The notes under the pieces: generated by a model
The model's input: only the letters and a program-made list of their open reading frames with translations
Told to the model about the DNA's origin: nothing
Databases searched by the model: none
Source: Devosia sp. 66-14
Lineage (GTDB): Bacteria; Pseudomonadota; Alphaproteobacteria; Rhizobiales; Devosiaceae
Length of the DNA: 53,783 bases
Direction of reading: 5' to 3'
Assembly (NCBI GenBank): GCA_001899085.1
Contig: MKVB01000011.1
Span: forward strand, 43,055-96,837
Program-made: the position numbers and the translations under genes
In this document: positions 9,087 to 19,443 of the stretch, in pieces
Layout of the letters: every line of letters starts with the position of its first letter
Numbering within the stretch: position 1 is the stretch's first letter

Positions 9087-10319
9087 TCACCCCCGCATCT
9101 TGCGCTCCAGCAGTCGCCGCTCCGCCTCGAGCCGGACCAGCGGCAGGGCGCGGGCATAGGCCGCCTGCGCTTCGGCTTGCCGCCCCAGCCGGTCGAGCAG
9201 GTCGGCGCGCGCCGCGTGGAGCGGCCAGTAGCCGTCGAGTGCGCCGCTGGCGGCCAGGGCATCGACCAGCTGCAGGGCCCGCTCGGGTCCATCGACCATC
9301 GATAGCGCGGCCGCCGCATTGAGTTCGACCACCGGGGTGGGGGCGAGGCGCAGCAGCACCTGGTAGAGCGCGGAAATCTGCGGCCAGTCGGTTGCGGCGA
9401 AGTTCGCGGCATCGGCATGCAGCGCCGCGATCGCCGCCTGCACGCCATAGGGGCCGATGCGGCGCGGTTGCCCCAGGGCGCGCTCGACCAGCGCCTTGCC
9501 TTCGGCGATGGCGGCGCGGTCCCAGCGGGTTCGATCCTGCTCTTCGAGCAGCAGCAACTCGCCGGCGCCGTCGCTCCGCCCGTCGAGCCGGGCGGCATGC
9601 AGCAGCATCAGGGCGAGGAGGCCGGCGATCTCAGGTTCGCCCGGCAGGAGCTGGTCGAGCAGCCGGCAAAGCCGGATCGCCTCGGCGCAGAGTTCGGGGC
9701 GGGTGGTTGCGGCGCCGGTGCTGGGGGCATAGCCCTCGGTGAATACCAGGTAGACCACCGCCAGCACGCCGGCGAGCCGCTCGGCGAGGTGCTCATGCGC
9801 CGGCACTTCATAGGGGATGGCGGCGTCGCGGATCTTGGCTTTGGCGCGCACCAGGCGCTGCGCCATGGTCTCCTCGCTGACGAGGAAGATGCTGGCCACG
9901 GCCGCCGTGCTCAGTCCGCACACGGTGCGCAGGGTCAGCGCCACCCGGGTTTCGAGCGCCAGCGCCGGGTGGCAGCAGGTGAAGATCAGCCGCAGCCGAT
10001 CGTCCTCGATCTCGTCGAGCTCGGCCTCCGGCCCGGCAATGGCGCCCTCGGCGGCCAGCGTCTTCAGCTTGCCGCGCAGCGTGACGCGGCGCCGGATGCG
10101 GTCGATGGCCTTGTGGCGGCCGGTATTGACCAGCCAGGCGCGCGGATTGTCGGGCAGCCCCATCTGCGGCCAGCGCTTGAGCGCCGCCTCGAAGGCATCC
10201 TGCGCGCCTTCCTCGGCCAGTTCGAAATCGCCGACGAGGCGGATGAGCGTGGCCAGCACGCGCCCCGCCTCGTGGCGATAGACCGCTTCGATGTCGGCTC
10301 GGTCGATCAGTGTGGTCAC
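9087..10319 (-). CDS. ECF42-type RNA polymerase sigma factor with long C-terminal extension
   Basis: A 410-aa protein, about twice the length of a minimal ECF sigma factor. Region 2 is at ~10-75 (EEGAQDAFEAALKRWPQ, NPRAWLVNTGRHKAIDRIRR) and region 4 at ~130-180 (ALTLRTVCGLSTAAVASIFL, SEETMAQRLVRAK). Residues ~190-410 form the helical, TPR-like extension typical of group ECF42; these sigma factors usually lack an anti-sigma factor and are encoded next to DGPF/YCII proteins, exactly as here. The start is GTG at 10319, directly after the TGA of the DGPF gene (no gap), so translation is coupled. Its targets outside the operon are unknown. Confidence 0.9.
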   Translation of the reverse strand: MTTLIDRADIEAVYRHEAGRVLATLIRLVGDFELAEEGAQDAFEAALKRWPQMGLPDNPRAWLVNTGRHKAIDRIRRRVTLRGKLKTLAAEGAIAGPEAELDEIEDDRLRLIFTCCHPALALETRVALTLRTVCGLSTAAVASIFLVSEETMAQRLVRAKAKIRDAAIPYEVPAHEHLAERLAGVLAVVYLVFTEGYAPSTGAATTRPELCAEAIRLCRLLDQLLPGEPEIAGLLALMLLHAARLDGRSDGAGELLLLEEQDRTRWDRAAIAEGKALVERALGQPRRIGPYGVQAAIAALHADAANFAATDWPQISALYQVLLRLAPTPVVELNAAAALSMVDGPERALQLVDALAASGALDGYWPLHAARADLLDRLGRQAEAQAAYARALPLVRLEAERRLLERKMRG

Positions 10320-10676
10320 TCAGTACTGGCGCGCCAGGCTGTCGATCGGCCGCACTTCCACCGCGCCGGCGCTGAACGGGATCTTGCCGGCGATCATCAG
10401 GGCTTCGTCGAGGTCCCTGGCCTCGATGATGTAATAGCCGCTGAGCTGCTCGCGGGTTTCGGCGAAGGGGCCGTCGGTGGTCAGCGATTTGCCGTCGCCG
10501 CGGCGGATGGTGGTGGCAGTGGCGGCAGGCTTCAGCTTGTCGCCGCCCTTGAGGTGGCCGCTCTTGACGATGTCCTGGGTGAAGCGGGCATAGGCCTCGC
10601 CCATGGCCTTGCCCTGTTCGGGCGTCGCCGAACCCATTGCCGCCTCGTCGCCATAGATCATCAGCAGGTACTGCAT
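10320..10676 (-). CDS. YCII/DGPF-domain protein, ECF42 partner
   Basis: A 118-aa protein that opens MQYLLMIYGDEAAM and carries the family signature DGPFAETREQLSGYY, followed by EARDLDEALMIAGKIPF. The ATG at 10676 has GGAG 6 nt upstream; an ATG 12 nt earlier has none. DGPF proteins are the conserved genomic partners of ECF42 sigma factors and are often the main target of that sigma factor; their biochemical role is not established. This gene is first in the two-gene operon, so autoregulation through the promoter upstream of 10676 is expected. Confidence 0.88.
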   Translation of the reverse strand: MQYLLMIYGDEAAMGSATPEQGKAMGEAYARFTQDIVKSGHLKGGDKLKPAATATTIRRGDGKSLTTDGPFAETREQLSGYYIIEARDLDEALMIAGKIPFSAGAVEVRPIDSLARQY

Positions 10677-10827
10677 GGTCGTCTCCATCTGTTGGCAGTT
10701 GCTACCGGCGATCGGTCGAACGGGGGAGAGCCGGGATCGACAGGCGGGTGCGAATTATTTCGCCGGCGATCCTAGCCGGTGCGGTCGGCCCGGCTCAAGG
10801 CCGCGGGGCGCCGGGGCCCGCCGACCC

Positions 10828-10858
10828 CATCAGCTTGATGTCAGGTGCCGATGCTATG
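10828..10858 (+). promoter_or_regulatory. Predicted OmpR-family operator/promoter, copy D
   Basis: CATCAGCTTGATGTCAGGTG (10828-10847) has two CAGSTT-like half-sites 11 bp apart. After 5 nt comes GCTATG (10853-10858) as a -10-like box. Three other copies with the same spacing occur at 16.9, 17.6 and 18.4 kb. This one points to the small membrane-protein gene at 10960, about 95 nt beyond the expected transcription start, and through it possibly to terC-dedA and the response-regulator/kinase pair. Confidence 0.6.
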
Positions 10859-10959
10859 GCTCGGGTTCCAAACCATGGAACGCCGATGAACCATACGTCC
10901 AGCAGGGCGCAGATGATTGCCGCGAGGCCCGGCCGCACTGCCGCGCCGGAGGCGAGGCG

Positions 10960-11376
10960 ATGAACATCGTCTGGTTCTTCATCGGCATGGCGGTGATCGG
11001 CGCGATCTGGGCCATTGCCGATGCCATGCTCGGTCGGCGGCGGCGCAGCCTCGTCGATGAGGCGCTGTTCGAGCGCCATGTGCGGGCGCTCGAGCCGGCG
11101 CTGGGCTGGGATGGCCCGCCGCTCGCCCTCAACGGCAGGCTGCGGCGCGCGGCGCGCCAGCATTGGAACCTGCTGCGCCGCTCGGCGCTTGCCGGCGCAC
11201 TGGTCGAGCCGCGGCCGCATCTGAGGCCGGTGAGCCGGGCCATCGTCGACCAGCTGCCGGCCAACCTCAAGGCCAACTGGCTGCTGCGTTCGTCGCAGGA
11301 GCAGGACGAGCTGTCGGAGCGGGCCTATCTGGCCGCCATCTCCCTCGCCATGGTCGAGGCCAGCGACGCCGAGTGA
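10960..11376 (+). CDS. Small single-span membrane protein of unknown function
   Basis: A 138-aa protein. Residues 1-24 (MNIVWFFIGMAVIGAIWAIA) form one N-terminal membrane helix; the rest is Arg- and Leu-rich and cytosolic by the positive-inside rule (MLGRRRRSLVDEALFERHVR follows the helix). The reading frame is open much further upstream, but the ATG at 10960 has GGAGG 7 nt before it and begins the hydrophobic segment. It lies behind predicted regulator site D and 255 bp ahead of terC, so it may head the envelope operon. No family is recognised. Confidence 0.65.
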   Translation: MNIVWFFIGMAVIGAIWAIADAMLGRRRRSLVDEALFERHVRALEPALGWDGPPLALNGRLRRAARQHWNLLRRSALAGALVEPRPHLRPVSRAIVDQLPANLKANWLLRSSQEQDELSERAYLAAISLAMVEASDAE

Positions 11377-11446
11377 TCCCCCCATCGCGGCGCCCAGCGC
11401 CCCGAAACCATCTGCCTGCCACCCCCTGACCAAGGAACCCAACGCC

Positions 11447-11635
11447 ATGCCTGACCCCAGTCGAAGTCCCGCCGAGGCCGGCAGCATTGCCTGCCGGCAC
11501 TCGGCAAACCGTTCTATCGGCGCGGCTGAGCTGCCCCCGCGAGGGCACGCCGCGCCCCCGGCGAGCCGTTGCCGACCGACGGCCGCCTCGCCCCTGACGC
11601 GGCCTTGCGTCATCGAGCCCGCGGCATCCAGATGA
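11447..11635 (+). CDS. Possible 62-aa leader ORF coupled to terC
   Basis: An ORF with AAGGA 10 nt before its ATG ends in TGA inside ATGA, where the ATG is the terC start at 11632. terC itself has no convincing Shine-Dalgarno sequence. The encoded peptide ([20 protein letters not shown] at its start) is Pro/Arg/Ala-rich and looks non-functional as a protein. It may exist only to bring ribosomes to terC through the stem-loop inside it. It could also be chance, since long open frames are common at this GC content. Confidence 0.35.
11471..11505 (+). promoter_or_regulatory. Strong stem-loop in the terC leader
   Basis: GCCGAG-GCCGGCAG (11471-11484) pairs with CTGCCGGC-A-CTCGGC (11491-11505): 14 base pairs with one bulged A and a 6-nt loop. 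It lies inside the possible leader ORF, 127 nt upstream of terC. TerC genes elsewhere can be under a manganese riboswitch (yybP-ykoY), but its conserved loop sequences are not present here, so this hairpin is unclassified. Confidence 0.4.
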
Positions 11636-13203
11636 TCTTTGAATGGATGTCCGACCCCGCCGCCTGGGCGGGCCTTGGGACGTTGATCCTGCTCGAGATC
11701 GTGCTCGGGATCGACAATCTGGTGTTCATCGCCATTCTCGCCGACAAGCTGCCCGAGCATCAGCGCAACCGCGCCCGGCTGATCGGGCTGTCGCTGGCGC
11801 TGCTCATGCGGCTGATGCTGCTCGCTTCGGTGGCATGGATCGTCACGCTGACGACGCCGCTGTTCAGCATTGTTGGCCTCAGCTTTTCCGGCCGCGACCT
11901 GATCCTCCTGTTCGGCGGCGCCTTCCTCCTCGCCAAGGGCACGATGGAGCTGCACGAGCGGCTCGAGGGGCGCGCCGAGCCCAAGCAGGGCAAGCTGGCG
12001 CACGCGGTGTTCTGGCAGGTGCTGGTGCAGATCGTGGTGCTCGATGCGGTGTTCTCGCTCGACAGCGTCATCACCGCGGTGGGGATGGTCGAGGACCTGT
12101 CGATCATGATGATCGCGGTGATCGTTGCCGTGCTCACCATGCTGGCGCTGTCCAAGCCGCTGATGGCCTTCGTTTCGAGGCACCCCACGGTGGTGATCCT
12201 CTGCCTCGGCTTTCTGATGATGATCGGCTTTTCGCTGGTGGTCGAAGGGTTCGGCTATCACCTGCCCAAGGGCTATCTCTATGCCGCGATCGGCTTTTCG
12301 GTGCTGATCGAGGCGTTCAACCAGGTGGCGCGCCGCAACCGCGAAAAGCTGCTCAGGACGTCGGACCTGAGGCAGCGCACCGCCGATGCGGTGCTGGCTT
12401 TGCTCGGCGGCCGGCGCGGCGAAGTGAGCCTCGGGGAAACCGCCGACGTCATCGTCGAAGAGGCCGCGACGAACGCGCTGTTCGCGCGCGAGGAAACCGC
12501 CATGATCCAGGGCGTGCTCGGCCTTGCCGACCGGCCGGTCATGTCGGTGATGACGCCGCGCCGCGAGATCGACTGGCTCGATATCGAGGATGATGCGGCC
12601 CGCCTCAGGGCCAAGATCCTCGAGATCGGGCACTCGCGCTTTCCCATCGGCCGCGGCAGCCTCGACGAACTGCTCGGCTTCGCGCTGGCCAAGGATCTGC
12701 TGCGCGACCTGCTCGATAGCGGCTCGATCGACCTCAACCGCTCGCTGAAGCAGCCGCTGATCGTTCATGAAAGCGCGAGCGTCCTGAAGCTGATCGAGCA
12801 GCTGCGCCGGCAGCCCATGCAGATGGCGGCGGTGGTCGACGAATATGGGGCGCTGCAGGGGCTGGCGACCCCCACCGATATTCTCGAGGCCATTGCCGGG
12901 GAGTTTCCCGACGAGGACGAGCCGCCGGTCGCGCCGGTCAGGGGCGAGGATGGGGCGTGGCGGCTCAGCGGGGCGATGGACGTGCGCGCTGCCTCGGTGC
13001 TGCTCGAGGTCGACCTGGTCGACGATGCCGATCGTTACACCACGCTTGCCGGCTTCGTGCTCTGGCAGCTCGACCACATCCCGAGCCGGGGCGAAGTGGT
13101 GGCCGCGGCGGGGCTGGCGTTCGAAGTCGAGGCGATCGAGGGCGCCCAGATCACCGAGCTCAAGGTCAGCCGGCCTGGCGGCGGCCCGGATGCGGAGCCC
13201 TGA
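11632..13203 (+). CDS. TerC-family membrane protein with CBS pair and CorC/HlyC domain
   Basis: A 523-aa protein of the YoaE/YegH layout. Residues 1-~235 are a TerC domain with seven or so membrane helices and the family's acidic motifs ([30 protein letters not shown]). Residues ~300-415 hold two CBS motifs ([46 protein letters not shown]), and ~425-515 the CorC/HlyC transporter-associated domain ([29 protein letters not shown]). TerC proteins are linked to metal (Mn) export and to metalation of secreted enzymes, and CBS/CorC parts suggest ligand control. It is followed by dedA after 5 nt, so the two form one transcript. Confidence 0.9.
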
Positions 13204-13208
13204 TCGGC

Positions 13209-13829
13209 ATGGATATCCTCAACGACTATGTGCTGCCGCTGGCGGCCTCGCCATGGATCTATGCCATCGCCTTCGTGCTGATCGCGGTGGATGGGTTCTT
13301 TCCGCCGTTCCCCAGCGAATCCGTGGTGGTGGCGCTGGCGGCGCTTTCGGCCTCCAACGGCGTGCCCGATATCGGGCCGCTGCTGGCGGTGGCCGCCGCC
13401 GGGGCGGTTGCCGGCGACACCGTCGCCTATCTCGGTGGCCGGGCGATCGGCCGCCGCCGGCTGCTGCAGCTGCGGTTCGCGCCGCTCGCCCGGCTGGTCG
13501 GCTGGGCCGAGGCGGGCCTTGCGGCGCGGCCGGGCACGCTGTTCCTCGCGGCGCGCTATATTCCGCTGGGCCGGTTCGGGGTGAACGTCACCGCCGGGGC
13601 GGTGGATTACCCGTTCCGGCGGTTCCTGCCCTGGTGCATCGCCGCCGGCGCCAGCTGGGCCGGCTATACGGTGCTGGTCGGCTTTGCCGCCGGCAAGTGG
13701 TTCGAACAGCAGCCGCTCCTCGGCATGGCGGTCGCCATCATCGTCGCCTTCGCCCTGGGCTGGCTGCTCGACCTGGCGATCGGACTGGTGCGGACCCGTT
13801 TCGGCCGGCGGCGGCATGAGGGGAAATAG
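13209..13829 (+). CDS. DedA-family (SNARE-associated/VTT) membrane protein
   Basis: A 206-aa protein with about five hydrophobic segments and the DedA signatures: GFFPPFPSESVVVALAAL near residue 30, GDTVAYLGGRAIGRR near 75, and RYIPLGRFGVNVTAGAVDYP then RFLPWCIAAGASWAGY near 115-150. DedA proteins support membrane integrity and resistance to cationic antimicrobial peptides, and some members (UptA type) return undecaprenyl phosphate to the inner leaflet. The start at 13209 is 5 nt after the terC stop; a longer upstream frame merely overlaps terC. The two-component genes follow, as in envelope-stress loci of other Gram-negative bacteria. Confidence 0.88.
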   Translation: MDILNDYVLPLAASPWIYAIAFVLIAVDGFFPPFPSESVVVALAALSASNGVPDIGPLLAVAAAGAVAGDTVAYLGGRAIGRRRLLQLRFAPLARLVGWAEAGLAARPGTLFLAARYIPLGRFGVNVTAGAVDYPFRRFLPWCIAAGASWAGYTVLVGFAAGKWFEQQPLLGMAVAIIVAFALGWLLDLAIGLVRTRFGRRRHEGK

Positions 13830-13862
13830 CGGGGCAGGGCGCTGCGGCGCCATCACAGACTT

Positions 13863-13905
13863 GCCGCGCCCGTGCCGCAGGGTCTCAATGCGGCGCGGGC
13901 GCGGC
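13863..13905 (+). promoter_or_regulatory. 17-bp stem-loop between dedA and the response regulator
   Basis: Bases 13863-13879 pair with 13889-13905 over 17 positions with a single T/G mismatch (a G-U pair in RNA) and a 9-nt loop. It ends 4 nt before the GGAGA ribosome site of the regulator gene. No T-run follows, so it is not a classical terminator; it could reduce read-through from terC-dedA, stabilise the upstream mRNA, or affect access to the regulator start. Confidence 0.5.
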
Positions 13906-13922
13906 CCGTTGGAGAGACAGAG

Positions 13923-14618
13923 TTGAGAATATTGCTGGTCGAAGACCACCGATCGCTGTCCGAGATGATCAAGGAGCATCTCGAACGGTCCGGGTTCGAT
14001 GTCGATGCGGTGTCGACCGCCGAGGACGCGATCCACTACTGGCGGTCGACCCGCTATGACGGCGTGGTGCTCGACCTGGGCCTGCCCGACGGCGATGGCA
14101 TGGGGGTGCTGGCGACCCTGGCGCGCGGCGAAAGCGAGCATGCCGTGCCGGTGGTGATCCTGACGGCGCGCGACGATCTCGACAGCCGGCTGCGCGGCCT
14201 CAACGGCGGCGCCGACGATTACCTCACCAAGCCCTTCGACATGCTCGAGCTCGAGGCGCGGCTGCGCGTCATCATGCGCCGCCCCGGCCTGCGCAAGGCC
14301 AATGTCGTCAGCTTCGGCGACCTGACCTATGACGTTGCCAGCTGGGAGGCTAAGGCCGGCGAGCGCAGCATCGACCTCGCCAAGAAGGAGTTCGCGCTGC
14401 TTGAGGAGCTGATGCGGGCGGCGCCCGGCATCGTGGTCAAGGATCGGCTGGAGGACCGGGTCTATGCGTTCGAACCGGTGACGGCGAACGCCATCGAGGC
14501 CATCGTCTACCGGGTGCGCCGCAAGCTCGCCGCCGCCGGCTCGACGGTGAGGGTGGAGACGGTGCGCGGCATCGGCTACCGCATGGTGCTGGGGGCCGAC
14601 GATGCGGTGGTTCGCTAG
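13923..14618 (+). CDS. OmpR-family response regulator
   Basis: A 231-aa protein with a receiver domain (residues 1-115: acidic E7/D8 in LLVEDHRS, phospho-acceptor D51 in VVLDLGLPDGDG, K103 in YLTKPFD) and an OmpR-type winged helix (~128-228, SIDLAKKEFALLEELM, ETVRGIGYRM). It resembles the QseB/PmrA/BasR branch. I place the start at TTG 13923, with GGAGA 8 nt upstream, because the receiver fold begins LRILLVEDH; the open frame 17 codons upstream runs through the stem-loop. The kinase gene overlaps its end by 17 nt. It is the best candidate to bind the four 11-bp-period direct repeats in this region. Confidence 0.9.
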   Translation: MRILLVEDHRSLSEMIKEHLERSGFDVDAVSTAEDAIHYWRSTRYDGVVLDLGLPDGDGMGVLATLARGESEHAVPVVILTARDDLDSRLRGLNGGADDYLTKPFDMLELEARLRVIMRRPGLRKANVVSFGDLTYDVASWEAKAGERSIDLAKKEFALLEELMRAAPGIVVKDRLEDRVYAFEPVTANAIEAIVYRVRRKLAAAGSTVRVETVRGIGYRMVLGADDAVVR

Positions 14619-15962
14619 CCTGCGCAGCCGGCTGATGCTGGTGATGGCGGTGGTGTTCGCGCTCGGCGTGGGCAACGTGATGATCTACCTGCTCGATCTC
14701 GACAAGGATATCCGCGCCCATGTGCTGAACGAGCAGATCGACACGCTGCTGGCCCGGGCGCCCGGCGCGGCGGAGGGCGAGGGGCTCGACGAGTTGCCGC
14801 TGTCGTTCTCGGAATCGAGCTGGCGCTATTCGCTCTACAGCGCCGACGGCAAGCTGCTCGGCGTGCAGCCGCAAGGCAGCGAGCCGCTGGCTTTCATGGT
14901 GCCGCGCGCCCCGCCGCCGTTGGCTGCCGACGTGATGGATGCGCGCCAGCTCAAGGATGGCAGCGTGCTGGTGGTGCGGCGCAACGCCTGGGGCGAGTGC
15001 GAAGAACTGTGCCAGATCATGCGGGGGCGGGTGGCGGGCTCGACCGCGGCGCTCACCGTGCTCGGCATCATCTCGATCGTCGCCATGGCAGCGCTCGCCG
15101 GCTGGATGCTGAGTTCGGTGCGGCGGGCCGCGGCGCTGGCCGGAACCTCGGCCGGGATCACCCCGATCGCCGCATCCCGATCGGCGAGCTGCCGACCGAG
15201 ATCGTGCCGCTGGCGCGCGCCGCCAACGATGCTTTCGACCGGCTGGCCGGCGCCTATGAGAGCGAGCGGCGCTTCACCGCCGATGCGGCGCATGAGCTCA
15301 GGACGCCGCTCGCCGTGCTCGACCTCAGGCTGCAGAAGGCGCGGCGCTCCGGCGCGCCCGAATGGGATGCGATTGCCGGCGACATGCGGCAGATGCAGCA
15401 TCTGGTGGATCAGCTGCTGGCGCTGGCGCGGGCCGAGCAGGCCGACCTCTCCACCGAACTCGCCGCGCCGGTCTCGGCGGCACGGCTGGTGCGCGAGGCG
15501 GTGGCGGATATGCTGCCGGCCTATGAAGCGGCGCAGCGAGCGATCGAGATCGATGTCGAGGAGGGGCTGGCGGTGCCGGCGGGCCGCGACCTGCTGCGCC
15601 AGGCGCTGCGGAACCTGCTCGACAATGCCATCCGCCATGGCCGTGGCACCACCCGGGTGGTGGTGCGCAAAGCCGGCAGCGGCATGGTCGAGATCAGCGT
15701 CGGCGACGAGGGGCCGGCGGTCAGCCCGGCGGCCGCCGAACTGCTGTTCGACCGGTTCCGCAAGGGGCGGCAGCACTCGACGGGCTCGGGGCTCGGCCTC
15801 GCCATCGTGCGCAGCATCTGCCGCCGGCTGGGCGGCGATACGCAGGCCGGCAGCGGGCCGGGATTTTCGGTGGTGCTGCTGCTTCCCGCCGCCGCTCAGC
15901 CCGGCGACAGCACGCCGACCCAGAGCAGCGCCAGCAGCAGCAGCCCGAGCGCCACGCGATAG
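14602..15962 (+). pseudogene. Sensor histidine kinase, frameshifted in the HAMP region
   Basis: Reading from ATG 14602 gives an N-terminal membrane helix, a ~115-residue periplasmic domain and a second helix (LTVLGIISIVAMAALAGWML). After ...AGTSAGI the frame turns to nonsense. One frame over, the protein resumes as RRIPIGELPTEIVPLARA, then the HisKA motif (DAAHELRTPLAVLDLRLQ), the N box (NLLDNAIRHG) and the G box (GSGLGLAIVRSI), ending at TAG 15962. Adding one C to the CCCC run at 15161-15164 gives ITPDRRIPIGELP and a continuous 453-aa kinase. As written the sensor and the catalytic half are separated. It overlaps uppP on the other strand by 67 nt. Error in the sequence is as likely as true loss. 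Confidence 0.82.
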
Positions 15963-16723
15963 CAGACGAAGGGCAGGAACGAGATGCGCGAGATGAGGCG
16001 CATGAAGCCCACGATGACGAAATAGCCGGTGAGGAAGGCGGTGAGCGTCGCCACCACGGTCGGCGCCAGCGCCGCCCGCTGCGGATCGCCCCAGGATTTG
16101 GCGAGCTGGTAGAGACCGGAGCCGAACACCGCCGGCACCGCGAGGAGGAACGAGAAGCGCGCCGCCGCCGGCCGGCCGAAGCCGAGAAACAGCGCGCCGG
16201 TAATGGTGGCGCCGGAGCGCGACACGCCGGGGATCAGCGCCAGCGCCTGGGCAAAGCCGAGGGCAATGCCGCTGCGCCAGCCCAGCCGATCGAGCGTCAG
16301 CGCCTTGCTGCCGATGCGGTCGGCCAGCGCCAGCACGAGGCCGAAGCCGATCAGCATGGCGGCGGTGAGGTAGAGGTCGCGCAGCACCGTTTCGATGGCG
16401 CCCTGCAGCGCCAGCCCCAGCACCACGATGGGGAGCGAGCCGATGGCGACGATCCAGCCGAGACGGGCGCTGGCCCCATCGTAGCCGGGCCGGCGCAGCA
16501 GCTGCGCCAGTACGGCCCTCAGCATGGCGATCAGGTCGCGGCGGAAATGCACCAGCACCGCCAGCTCGGTGCCGATCTGGACGATGGCGGTGAAGGCGGC
16601 GCCCGGGTCGCTGCCCGAGGGCAGGACCTGGCCGAGGATGCGCAGGTGGGCGCTCGACGACACCGGCAGGAACTCGGTCAGCCCCTGCACCAATCCCAAC
16701 AGGGCCGCTTCCCAGATCTGCAT
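15896..16723 (-). CDS. uppP: Undecaprenyl-diphosphatase (UppP/BacA)
   Basis: A 275-aa, eight-helix membrane protein with both UppP signatures: GLTEFLPVSSSAHL near residue 10 and PGVSRSGATI near 165. It removes a phosphate from undecaprenyl diphosphate on the outer face of the inner membrane, recycling the lipid carrier for peptidoglycan, O-antigen and exopolysaccharide synthesis, and overproduction gives bacitracin resistance. The start at 16723 has GGGGGAGG ahead of it; the frame extends upstream only as non-coding sequence. Predicted operator copy A lies about 180 bp upstream and points towards this gene. Confidence 0.95.
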   Translation of the reverse strand: MQIWEAALLGLVQGLTEFLPVSSSAHLRILGQVLPSGSDPGAAFTAIVQIGTELAVLVHFRRDLIAMLRAVLAQLLRRPGYDGASARLGWIVAIGSLPIVVLGLALQGAIETVLRDLYLTAAMLIGFGLVLALADRIGSKALTLDRLGWRSGIALGFAQALALIPGVSRSGATITGALFLGFGRPAAARFSFLLAVPAVFGSGLYQLAKSWGDPQRAALAPTVVATLTAFLTGYFVIVGFMRLISRISFLPFVCYRVALGLLLLALLWVGVLSPG

Positions 16724-16895
16724 GCGGTTCCTCCCCCGGCGAGGCTGTTGCCTCGTCTGTTCCCCTTGCGTCGTCGCGGGCGCGATCGCTGCAGCGCCGT
16801 GAACGAGACGCCGAGGGTTTGTTCCTGCTGCGCCAGAGCCGGCGCAGCCTGCGGGTCCCTGCTGCCACAGGGGCAGGCTGCGCCGTTGCCCGCGT

Positions 16896-16926
16896 GCTAG
16901 CGCATCAAGCTGATGCGAACCTGATG
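16896..16926 (-). promoter_or_regulatory. Predicted OmpR-family operator/promoter, copy A (towards uppP)
   Basis: On the minus strand CATCAGGTTCGCATCAGCTT occupies 16926-16907, followed after 5 nt by GCTAGC (16901-16896). The orientation predicts leftward transcription into uppP with a ~165-nt leader. It is the main recognisable element in the 334-bp gap 16724-17057; apart from this site and the two gene starts I see nothing in that gap. Confidence 0.6.
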
Positions 16927-17057
16927 GCCGGCAATGGCGGCCGCGCCGGCTCACGGGATGGTTCGCATTTGCATCGAATTGTCGTCGCTGGCCCAAGCCT
17001 ATGGCAAAGCCGGGTGGGGTTGTTTCGTCGGGCAGGAACAGCCCCGCGAGGACCGGC

Positions 17058-17576
17058 ATGCGCCACTCTCTTCCCCTTGCCGCCGCGATGATGGTGGCGA
17101 TCTTCGGCAGTGTCGGCCCCGCCACGGCAGAGGCCGCCGGCGTCAAGGTGCCGCTGGGCTTCCGGATGATGTGCCTCAAGACCCCGGAGGAGTGCCTCGG
17201 TGGCGGCGCCAGCCATGTCGAGGCCACCGCCGAGGTGATGGCGACGCTGAAGCGGGTGAATTCGCACGTCAACCGGGCGATCACGCCGGAAGCCGGCGGG
17301 CCGGTGATCTGGCGCGTCGGGGTGTCCGCCGGCGATTGCGACGAATATGCCGCCACCAAGCGGAACCTGCTGATCCGCGCCGGCATCCCGCCCAGCGCCA
17401 TCCGCTTCGCCTATGTCAAGGCGCGCGGCGAGGGGCACGCCATCGTGGTGGTGAAGACCGACCGGGGCGATTTCGTGCTCGACAACCTGCATCGCTCGGT
17501 CCGCCCGCTGGCGCAGACCGGCTACCGCATCATCTCGATGTCGGGCGCCGACCCCAAAGCCTGGAGCGCCGGCTGA
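17058..17576 (+). CDS. Secreted BTLCP-type transglutaminase-like cysteine proteinase
   Basis: A 172-aa protein. The ATG at 17058 begins a signal peptide (MRHSLPLAAAMMVAIFGSVG, cleavage near ATAEAAG); an upstream in-frame ATG would bury it. The mature part matches bacterial transglutaminase-like cysteine proteinases (PF06035, related to LapG): catalytic Cys in SAGDCDEYAATKRNLLIRAG (C94), His in EGHAIVVVKTDRGDF (H127) and Asp in VLDNLH (D142). These are periplasmic and in the LapG branch cleave surface adhesins, but no LapD or LapA partner is in the window, so the substrate is open. Its neighbours are uppP (divergent) and the pyrophosphatase. Confidence 0.85.
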   Translation: MRHSLPLAAAMMVAIFGSVGPATAEAAGVKVPLGFRMMCLKTPEECLGGGASHVEATAEVMATLKRVNSHVNRAITPEAGGPVIWRVGVSAGDCDEYAATKRNLLIRAGIPPSAIRFAYVKARGEGHAIVVVKTDRGDFVLDNLHRSVRPLAQTGYRIISMSGADPKAWSAG

Positions 17577-17620
17577 CCGAGCGTCGCGCGCCCGGGGGCA
17601 TCGGCGCCGTCGCGACCGCT

Positions 17621-17651
17621 CATCAGGTTGCCGTCAGCTTGCCCTGCTAGA
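17621..17651 (+). promoter_or_regulatory. Predicted OmpR-family operator/promoter, copy B
   Basis: CATCAGGTTGCCGTCAGCTT (17621-17640) is followed after 5 nt by GCTAGA (17646-17651). It differs from copy C at one position in 20. It directs rightward transcription into the secreted pyrophosphatase, with a leader of about 143 nt that contains a GCGCGC hairpin flanked by GTTGAG/CTCAAC. Confidence 0.65.
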
Positions 17652-17800
17652 TGATCGGCATCCGCCGTGCCCGGCTCCGGCTTCGGCTCAGCTACTGTCG
17701 CAATAGCTTCATCGTCCAGACATCAGCGTTTCACCAAGTTGAGATAAGATTGAGCGCGCCCCTGCGCGCAAAAACTCAACTCATCAAGGATGATACCTGA

Positions 17801-18399
17801 ATGCGAAGACTGGCTATTGCTGGCCTATTGTTTTTTTCGTTTGCCGCCACCGGCGCGGCGCAGGCGGAATATACCTCGCCATTTGCTTTCCCTCAGCCGG
17901 AGGACAGCAGTCAATTCTATACCGTGGTGGAAATTCCGCAGGGCAGTTTCACCAAATACGAGATCGACGCCGACACCGGCCATATCATCGTCGATCGCTA
18001 TCAGTCGATGCCGGTGGTCTATCCGGCCAATTACGGCTCGATCCCGTCGTCGCTGGGCGGTGATGGCGATCCGCTCGACGCGCTGGTGTTCTCGCGCGAA
18101 CCGATCATCCCGGGGCGATGATTCTGGTGCGCGCCATTGGCGTGCTGCACATGATCGATGGCGGCGAAGCCGACGACAAGATCGTCGCCGTGCCGGTGTC
18201 GGAGGTCGATCCGACCTATGACGACATCCGCTCGATCGATGACCTGCCGGCGATCGAGCGCCAGCGCGTCGAGGCCTTCTTCCGCGTCTACAAGCAGTTG
18301 CCCGAGGGACGGAAGGTGGTCGAGCTGAACGGCTTCAGCGGGGTCAACGAGGCGCAAACCCTGGTGTCGGACGCCATCGCCGCCTACCGCGCCAGGTAG
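17801..18399 (+). pseudogene. Secreted inorganic pyrophosphatase, frameshifted
   Basis: The first frame (17801-18121, 106 aa) has a signal peptide ([20 protein letters not shown], then QAEYTS) and the family I pyrophosphatase core: [29 protein letters not shown] with the D-G-D-P-L-D metal site. It stops just after REPIIPG. The remainder (from 18118, 93 aa) resumes in the next frame: [20 protein letters not shown], then DLPAIERQRVEAFF. Adding one G to the GGGG run at 18112-18115 gives [13 protein letters not shown] and a complete 199-aa enzyme. It would hydrolyse PPi in the periplasm. Predicted operator copy B lies upstream. As written neither half should be active, though the ATGA junction would let both be made. 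Confidence 0.85.
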
Positions 18400-18404
18400 A
18401 GGCC

Positions 18405-18435
18405 CATCAGGTTGGCGTCAGCTTCGGCATGTAGG
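18405..18435 (+). promoter_or_regulatory. Predicted OmpR-family operator/promoter, copy C
   Basis: CATCAGGTTGGCGTCAGCTT (18405-18424) begins 6 nt after the pyrophosphatase stop. After 5 nt TGTAGG (18430-18435) stands where the other copies have GCTAG or GCTAT. It points to the 100-aa gene at 18558, giving a leader of about 116 nt. Confidence 0.6.
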
Positions 18436-18557
18436 CTTGCGTCAACGGGCGGCGCGCGCGGGCGGGGCCCCGAACTCGAACTGCAGCGCGGCACACCCGG
18501 GCAGGCCGTCGATGGTTGCGCATCGGCGGCCTGCACCCCGTCGCGATGGAGGTTTCC

Positions 18558-18860
18558 ATGCCAGACTATGACGACATGGTTCCCGCCTTCGAAGCGGCCG
18601 TCGCCGCGCTGCGCGAGACCTATGGCAGCAGCCTCGCCCTGCTCGAGATCGAGATGACGGTCGAGCGCACCTCGGTGCAGATCGAGGTGACGCTGGCGCC
18701 CAAGGGCGGCGAGCCGGTGCCGCACACGGTCAAGATGGGCTCGTTCACCGCGACGCGCCTGCCCGAGCGGCTGGCCTATCTCAAGGCGGCGATGGACCAT
18801 ATCGCGCGCCTGATCGACGAGACGCTGGTGCACCAGGGCGCCGCGCCGCGCCAGACCTGA
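18558..18860 (+). CDS. Small hypothetical protein behind operator copy C
   Basis: A 100-aa protein with GGAGG 5 nt before the ATG. The sequence is acidic at the start (MPDYDDMVPAFEAAVAALRE), with regular beta-strand alternation in the middle (TVERTSVQIEVTLAPKGG) and a helix at the end (AYLKAAMDHIARLIDETLVH). There is no signal peptide or membrane segment. I recognise no family. The only clue to its role is the upstream site shared with uppP and the pyrophosphatase. Confidence 0.7.
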   Translation: MPDYDDMVPAFEAAVAALRETYGSSLALLEIEMTVERTSVQIEVTLAPKGGEPVPHTVKMGSFTATRLPERLAYLKAAMDHIARLIDETLVHQGAAPRQT

Positions 18861-19193: not shown

Positions 19194-19443
19194 GAGCCCG
19201 GACGATCGGGGTGGAGGGTGGGGCGCTCGAACCCGCCGCGAATGCAAACCGGGCGGCAGGGCGGCTAGCGGAGTTGGGAACGCGATGCCGCCCGGTTTGG
19301 TCGCGCCTTGCGGCACGGTCCGCGCGGCCTTTCGAGCCTCGAGGACGTCCTGCCCTAGCAGACGCATGCTGACGCTCGACTGAGCCCGGATCTCAGCGAA
19401 ATTACAGCTTCGAGGAAAGCTGCGTTGAGCTTCCCGAAATGAA

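Follow-up and report, generated by a model that had tools for sequence, protein, structure and literature searches.

The question raised by this locus is which regulator acts on four nearly identical direct repeats among cell-envelope genes, and with what effect. The window analysed is a stretch of 53,783 nucleotides (nt) from Devosia sp. 66-14 (GCA_001899085.1, contig MKVB01000011.1, positions 43,055 to 96,837), in which a response-regulator gene (13923-14618, plus strand) lies among the repeats. Candidate operator site 1 (CATCAGCTTGATGTCAGGTG; 10828-10847, plus strand) precedes a run of genes for a small membrane protein, a TerC protein, a DedA protein, the regulator and a kinase. Sites 2 (CATCAGGTTCGCATCAGCTT; 16907-16926, minus strand), 3 (CATCAGGTTGCCGTCAGCTT; 17621-17640, plus strand) and 4 (CATCAGGTTGGCGTCAGCTT; 18405-18424, plus strand) lie upstream of uppP, a pyrophosphatase frame and a gene for a 100-amino-acid protein, respectively. 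Direct reading of the sequence bore out the positions and strands assigned to these 20-mers in an initial annotation. All four fit CATCAGSTT-NNN-RTCAGSTK, that is TCAG-N7-TCAG, and have the two half-sites in direct repeat with an 11-base-pair (bp) period that define operators of the OmpR/PhoB type. They are probably operators of the local two-component system, whose PmrA/TctD/QseB-type regulator would switch on the envelope genes jointly; judged by sequence comparison, this regulator is the most likely binder of all four.

A search of the window with CATCAGNTTNNNNTCAGNT, allowing up to 2 mismatches, returned 4 matches, all exact, compared with an average of 0.46 and a maximum of 3 in shuffles. 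At the same tolerance, CATCAGSTTNNNRTCAGSTK matched 8 times in the whole genome (G000; 5,719,967 bases): the four window sites without mismatch and 4 others with 2 mismatches, none having 1, while the reversed pattern, used as control, matched once. The number of exact matches is a post hoc figure, because the four sites themselves had supplied the pattern. Less circular tests were a pattern scan of 61 genomes, the spacers of Azospirillum, the alignment with a second genome (G014) and a matrix built from sites outside the window. The initial statement that every copy is intergenic holds if the membrane-protein gene starts at 10960, the start favoured by the G014 comparison; site 1 itself sits within a frame open from 10675 to 11376. 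With transcription assumed to begin 7 nt past the -10 element, the distances to the facing genes were counted as approximately 93, 164, 141 and 114 nt, in agreement with the 95-165 nt originally proposed.

In the 136 family genomes compared, only G000 (100%) and G014 (93%) held close copies of the regulator, the next match being at 44%. Sixty further regulator regions were hand-picked for diversity from this family-wide listing. A scan of genome contigs with the regulator as query yielded, among the matches listed, exclusively regulators of 33-43% identity, and at least 80 loci from that scan served solely as outgroup. Exact sites occurred, among the 61 genomes scanned, in G000 (4) and G014 (2) only, with 1-mismatch matches in 16 further genomes. 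In G014, sites 1 and 4 were retained upstream of the same two genes, each with one altered spacer base, and the sequence just upstream of both had diverged from that of the window; the block of uppP with site 2 and the block of pyrophosphatase with site 3 were both absent. Two plasmids of Azospirillum argentinense carry a 62% identical ortholog of the regulator, after which come its kinase, a convergent uppP and a dedA. Two exact TCAG-N7-TCAG repeats were found in 20.7 kilobases (kb) of this sequence, both within a 180-nt spacer, where one faces uppP and the other dedA; only 2 of 100,000 simulated 180-nt spacers held two such repeats. Conservation ahead of orthologous genes, which the initial annotation had put forward as a check, was observed where the check was run in G014 and Azospirillum: sites precede the same two genes in G014, and in Azospirillum uppP and dedA each have one in front. 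The uppP gene of Azospirillum MTCC4035 (L144, 12052-12821) was recovered as two tblastn pieces and is absent from the listed annotation; in Az39 it is whole.

The sites track with the regulator and not with the uppP genes. Homologs of uppP with 56-62% identity were found in G084, Novosphingobium, Shinella, Sphingomonas, Paracoccus, Microbacterium and Deinococcus, at loci without a close copy of the regulator. At none of these 7 loci, which have no such regulator nearby, was TCAG-N7-TCAG present near uppP; the sole exact repeat, in Paracoccus, lay 2.1 kb away and inside another gene. The plasmid records with uppP homologs numbered 12, of which the 2 from Azospirillum and 6 of the other 10 were covered, leaving out H13, H16, H17 and H18. 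In those six records no close regulator was encoded on the plasmid, the chromosomes not having been searched. The comparison of site conservation covered G014, Azospirillum and the 7 uppP loci.

Related regulators elsewhere use nearly the same arrangement. Of 100 near-set regions upstream of such regulators, 19 contained TCAG-Nk-TCAG at k = 7; for each other k between 1 and 15 the number was 0-5, and shuffles gave a mean of 0.8 and a largest value of 4. TCAG-N7-TCAG accompanied 15 of the 17 regulators with the recognition helix ESN..EV..SRLR, vs 4 of the 83 others. Regulators with the helix ESN[AT][VI]EV[YH][VI]SRLR have the operator consensus CTTCAGGTTGCTGTCAGCTT, which resembles the window sites in its spacing and in the distance of regulator-facing sites to the -10 element. 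Unlike the window system, they mostly have two divergent TCAG-N7-TCAG repeats at the regulator promoter, and their neighbours differ. For instance, L155, L156 and L157 (12.5 kb fetched) contain QseB-type regulators with the ESN helix beside a DUF2271-type gene and a large PepSY-type gene (Pfam run on L155), a type of cluster that has been linked with extracytosolic iron reduction (PMC8238504, accessible text).

A matrix was built from 26 of these outside sites, none of them from the window, G014 or Azospirillum. Applied to the window, it placed the four sites at ranks 1 to 4, with sites 3 and 4 tied first (26.3 each), site 1 third (18.6) and site 2 fourth (17.2), followed by a next score of 10.1; the two G014 and the two Azospirillum sites likewise ranked first in their own loci. 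This test is independent for rank and for positions other than the core letters, because it was the window that had led to the choice of TCAG-N7-TCAG. The initial reading as a candidate regulon of the OmpR type was supported, with refinements. An operator set of 11-bp direct repeats with a regulator among the sites is the best reading, and its assignment to the OmpR/PhoB/PmrA family is supported by G014, Azospirillum, the outside matrix and the 7 site-free uppP loci. The operator type is not isolated: it also serves a wider regulator subclade, so that the TCAG half-sites here occur in a geometry already known. The half-site is a variant one, and the set of targets is unusual. In practice, the 20-bp matrix combined with the -10 element should find targets of this regulator subclade. 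Outside the window, three TCAG half-sites in tandem with an 11-bp period were observed in the same genome (L233, approximately 1490-1520; G000 C3:292329).

The hexamers originally quoted as -10-like (GCTATG, GCTAGC, GCTAGA and TGTAGG) were confirmed to follow each 20-mer after 5 nt, but the -10 element is better read as beginning with the TA that lies exactly 7 nt past the site in 4 of 4 cases. As read from the sequence, the likely -10 elements are TATGGC (10855-10860, plus strand), TAGCAC (16894-16899, minus strand), TAGATG (17648-17653, plus strand) and TAGGCT (18432-18437, plus strand) for sites 1 to 4, respectively. Among the 12 regulator-facing outside sites, TA occurred at +7 in 7, and no other offset between 0 and 16 had it in more than 1. 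The window sites therefore share both features of the operator of the ESN-helix subclade, TCAG-N7-TCAG and a gene-facing TA at +7. With TA in this position, the first half-site falls on the -35 region. The PhoB box, too, is a direct repeat with an 11-bp period, lying roughly one helical turn upstream of the -10 element, and differs from the window sites in the sequence of its half-sites. In the pbgP promoter bound by PmrA, the -35 element is located at half-1, and a like placement is given for PhoB (PMC4660055, in the part available).

Both domains of the window regulator scored above the Pfam cut-offs (PF00072, 92.6 bits; PF00486, 61.1 bits), which places it in the OmpR/PhoB superfamily. By profile scores and solved relatives, the second-best of which was BasR/PmrA, it is assigned to the PmrA/TctD/QseB type. 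QseB/PreA and TctD belong to the same subfamily by profile score, yet the regulator remained below their equivalog cut-offs (QseB, 154.1 vs 345 bits; TctD, 168 vs 337), and also below those for PmrA (174.2 vs 330) and PhoB (150.4 vs 296.2). Its recognition helix, TANAIEAIVYRVRRKL, does not have the ESN..EV..SRLR form. The half-site of PmrA, TTAAG, differs from the TCAG of the window. By alignment, the helix has Asn at position 188 and Arg at 196, whereas PmrA contacts bases through Asn188 and Asn196 (PMC4660055, same portion). PmrA/BasR resembles the window system in being an OmpR/PhoB-superfamily regulator, in the head-to-tail dimer on two half-sites that is predicted here, and in a -35 element at half-1 (PMC4660055, same portion); besides residue 196, it differs in its target genes.

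Residue 196 was compared with the half-site across regulators. TCAG was found with 19 of 118 Arg regulators, 0 of 17 Asn regulators and 5 of 50 with other residues, and TTAA with 0 of 118, 3 of 17 and 2 of 50, respectively; the association (Fisher, 0.0006) is only a lead, as the statistic ignores relatedness and base composition. The Caulobacter regulator UzcR was considered as the owner of the operator; the accessible text of PMC12864828 and PMC8224329 does not contain the letters of its motif, and this candidate was left undecided and unused. In the accessible parts of the open-licence literature, no description of an operator for this regulator subclade was found.

According to the proposed mechanism, two TCAG half-sites at a distance of 11 bp would be occupied by a head-to-tail dimer of the regulator. 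The first of them, upstream, would replace the -35 element, and the -10 element, with its TA 7 nt past the site, would complete the promoter. Once phosphorylated, the regulator would jointly activate its own operon (membrane protein, TerC-CBS protein, DedA, regulator and kinase), uppP, the pyrophosphatase gene and the 100-amino-acid protein gene. BacA/UppP removes a phosphate from undecaprenyl diphosphate, and undecaprenyl phosphate is flipped by proteins of the DedA family (PMC12826051, accessible sections). As these are the two steps in the recycling of undecaprenyl phosphate, the likely task of the system is to raise recycling of the lipid carrier under envelope stress, as co-control would do. 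The system thus probably controls undecaprenyl-phosphate recycling, through UppP and DedA, jointly with other envelope genes. The DedA protein of the window matched the UptA equivalog weakly (19.9 vs 250), and for that reason undecaprenyl phosphate is given here as its presumed substrate. How cells control undecaprenyl-phosphate recycling is an open question, for which a regulon of UppP and DedA would, if true, provide a direct and testable case.

Several results weigh against this proposal. The regulator is rare: in a sample of 397 genomes of the order, all matches at E ≤ 1e-52 had at most 46% identity, and in a sample of 385 genomes of the class there was no match at E ≤ 1e-58 besides the window's own. 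The sequence downstream of site 1 is largely conserved in G014, so that the footprint is not sharply bounded there. No TCAG-N7-TCAG stands directly before the local regulator gene, TA at +7 was found in 0 of 14 divergent outside sites, and the reading frame of the kinase is broken in the present assembly. With the outside matrix, the Azospirillum uppP site scored only 11.7, and sites 1 and 2 came close to the highest score in 40 random windows (18.8; mean peak, 10.4). Taken singly, these two sites could therefore pass for chance similarity; as an account of the whole set, chance is scarcely credible, since the matrix ranks the four sites first jointly and the sites recur in G014 and Azospirillum. 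A further point against the proposal is that two other regulators encoded in G000, C2:830079 and C6:258455, might bind or share the sites. They are 66% and 58% identical to the L016 regulator and related to the ESN-helix subclade, whose members in other genomes adjoin nearly the same operator (the 15 of 17 above). That the sites are operators of either QseB-type regulator, with or without the local one, is nevertheless unlikely. Their own upstream regions, which are outside the count of 17, lack the exact TCAG-N7-TCAG and hold instead variants whose first half-site contains TAAG (scores of 12.8 and 14.3, one with TA at +7). Moreover, the exact sites co-occur with the local regulator in G014, and such sites stand beside its 62% ortholog in Azospirillum. 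The base before the first TCAG also differs, being A in all 4 window sites and T in 23 of the 26 outside sites.

The direction of control is harder to read from these data, as the computed results do not separate activation from repression and a basal promoter could use the same -10 letters. Binding for repression, or by the unphosphorylated regulator, is nonetheless rather improbable: half-sites over the -35 region match the arrangement used by PmrA and PhoB for activation (PMC4660055, available part), and the poor match of the -10 elements would fit a need for an activator. The repeats might instead play no part in regulation and be scars left by inserted genes or a mobile repeat, a reading suggested by the uppP and pyrophosphatase blocks, both present here and absent in G014, and by the position of sites 3 and 4, which flank the pyrophosphatase block. 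This is very improbable, because the sequences around the four sites, compared by eye, are alike only in the 20-mer and the -10 region, and because near-exact copies are absent elsewhere in G000. In addition, G014 has sites 1 and 4 without either block, and the motif is found in regulator promoters of other genomes.

Activation of the envelope genes by the local regulator therefore remains the preferred reading. A broader idea is more tentative and at present somewhat doubtful: the locus may be a rare, horizontally moving two-component cassette for undecaprenyl-phosphate recycling, in which UppP, DedA and a TerC-type protein are induced together by one regulator and targets join or leave each with its own operator copy. 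Within the PmrA/QseB group, replacement of Asn by Arg at residue 196 would accompany the switch from TTAA to TCAG half-sites. On the Novosphingobium plasmid pP6W1 (L245, 3239-14343), uppP, dedA and a TerC-CBS gene are grouped next to another two-component pair (36% regulator), which points to a gene set that travels and is not tied to one regulator. Genes for an integrase, a Mu-type transposase and TniB adjoin it, a hint that the set is a mobile cassette of envelope genes.

In the window, site 1 is followed on the plus strand by genes for the small membrane protein (10960-11376; no Pfam or NCBIfam family match), a membrane protein with TerC, CBS and CorC_HlyC domains (11632-13203), a DedA family protein with a VTT domain (13209-13830), the regulator and the sensor kinase (HisKA and HATPase; 14602-15912). 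On the minus strand, uppP (15899-16723) encodes an undecaprenyl-diphosphate phosphatase of the BacA family according to Pfam and NCBIfam. A transglutaminase-like cysteine peptidase gene (Peptidase_C93; 17001-17576, plus strand) is faced by no site. The pyrophosphatase frame (17801-18399, plus strand) consists of two pieces, 17801-18121 and 18118-18399, and the gene for the 100-amino-acid protein (18558-18860, plus strand) encodes a product without Pfam or NCBIfam family match. The gene content initially reported was thus supported by Pfam for TerC, DedA, regulator, kinase, BacA/UppP and Pyrophosphatase, except that two of the frames are not intact. Frame changes break the kinase (at 15100-15200, near 15150) and the pyrophosphatase (at 18110-18125, near 18118); they may represent real loss or assembly error, and in G014 the kinase is a single open frame. 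A doubtful fifth TCAG-N7-TCAG (19369-19383, minus strand) lies outside the 9 best matrix hits and upstream of a PilZ match that scores below the Pfam cut-off.

The sensor domain of the kinase contains a C-x3-C motif (CEELC) that is common to the Azospirillum kinase. A search with this domain returned no match except the window's own among 385 genomes of the class, and two weak matches, L150 and L151, among 299 genomes of the phylum. The regulators at L150 (7512) and L151 (7046), from another family of the phylum, are 52% and 49% identical to that of the window, and a conserved TCAG-N7-TCAG lies directly at the start of both. Upstream of site 1, at 9087-10688, a sigma-70-like protein with a DUF6596 domain is encoded beside a YCII-domain protein, a common pairing for sigma-70-like proteins of the extracytoplasmic function (ECF) type.

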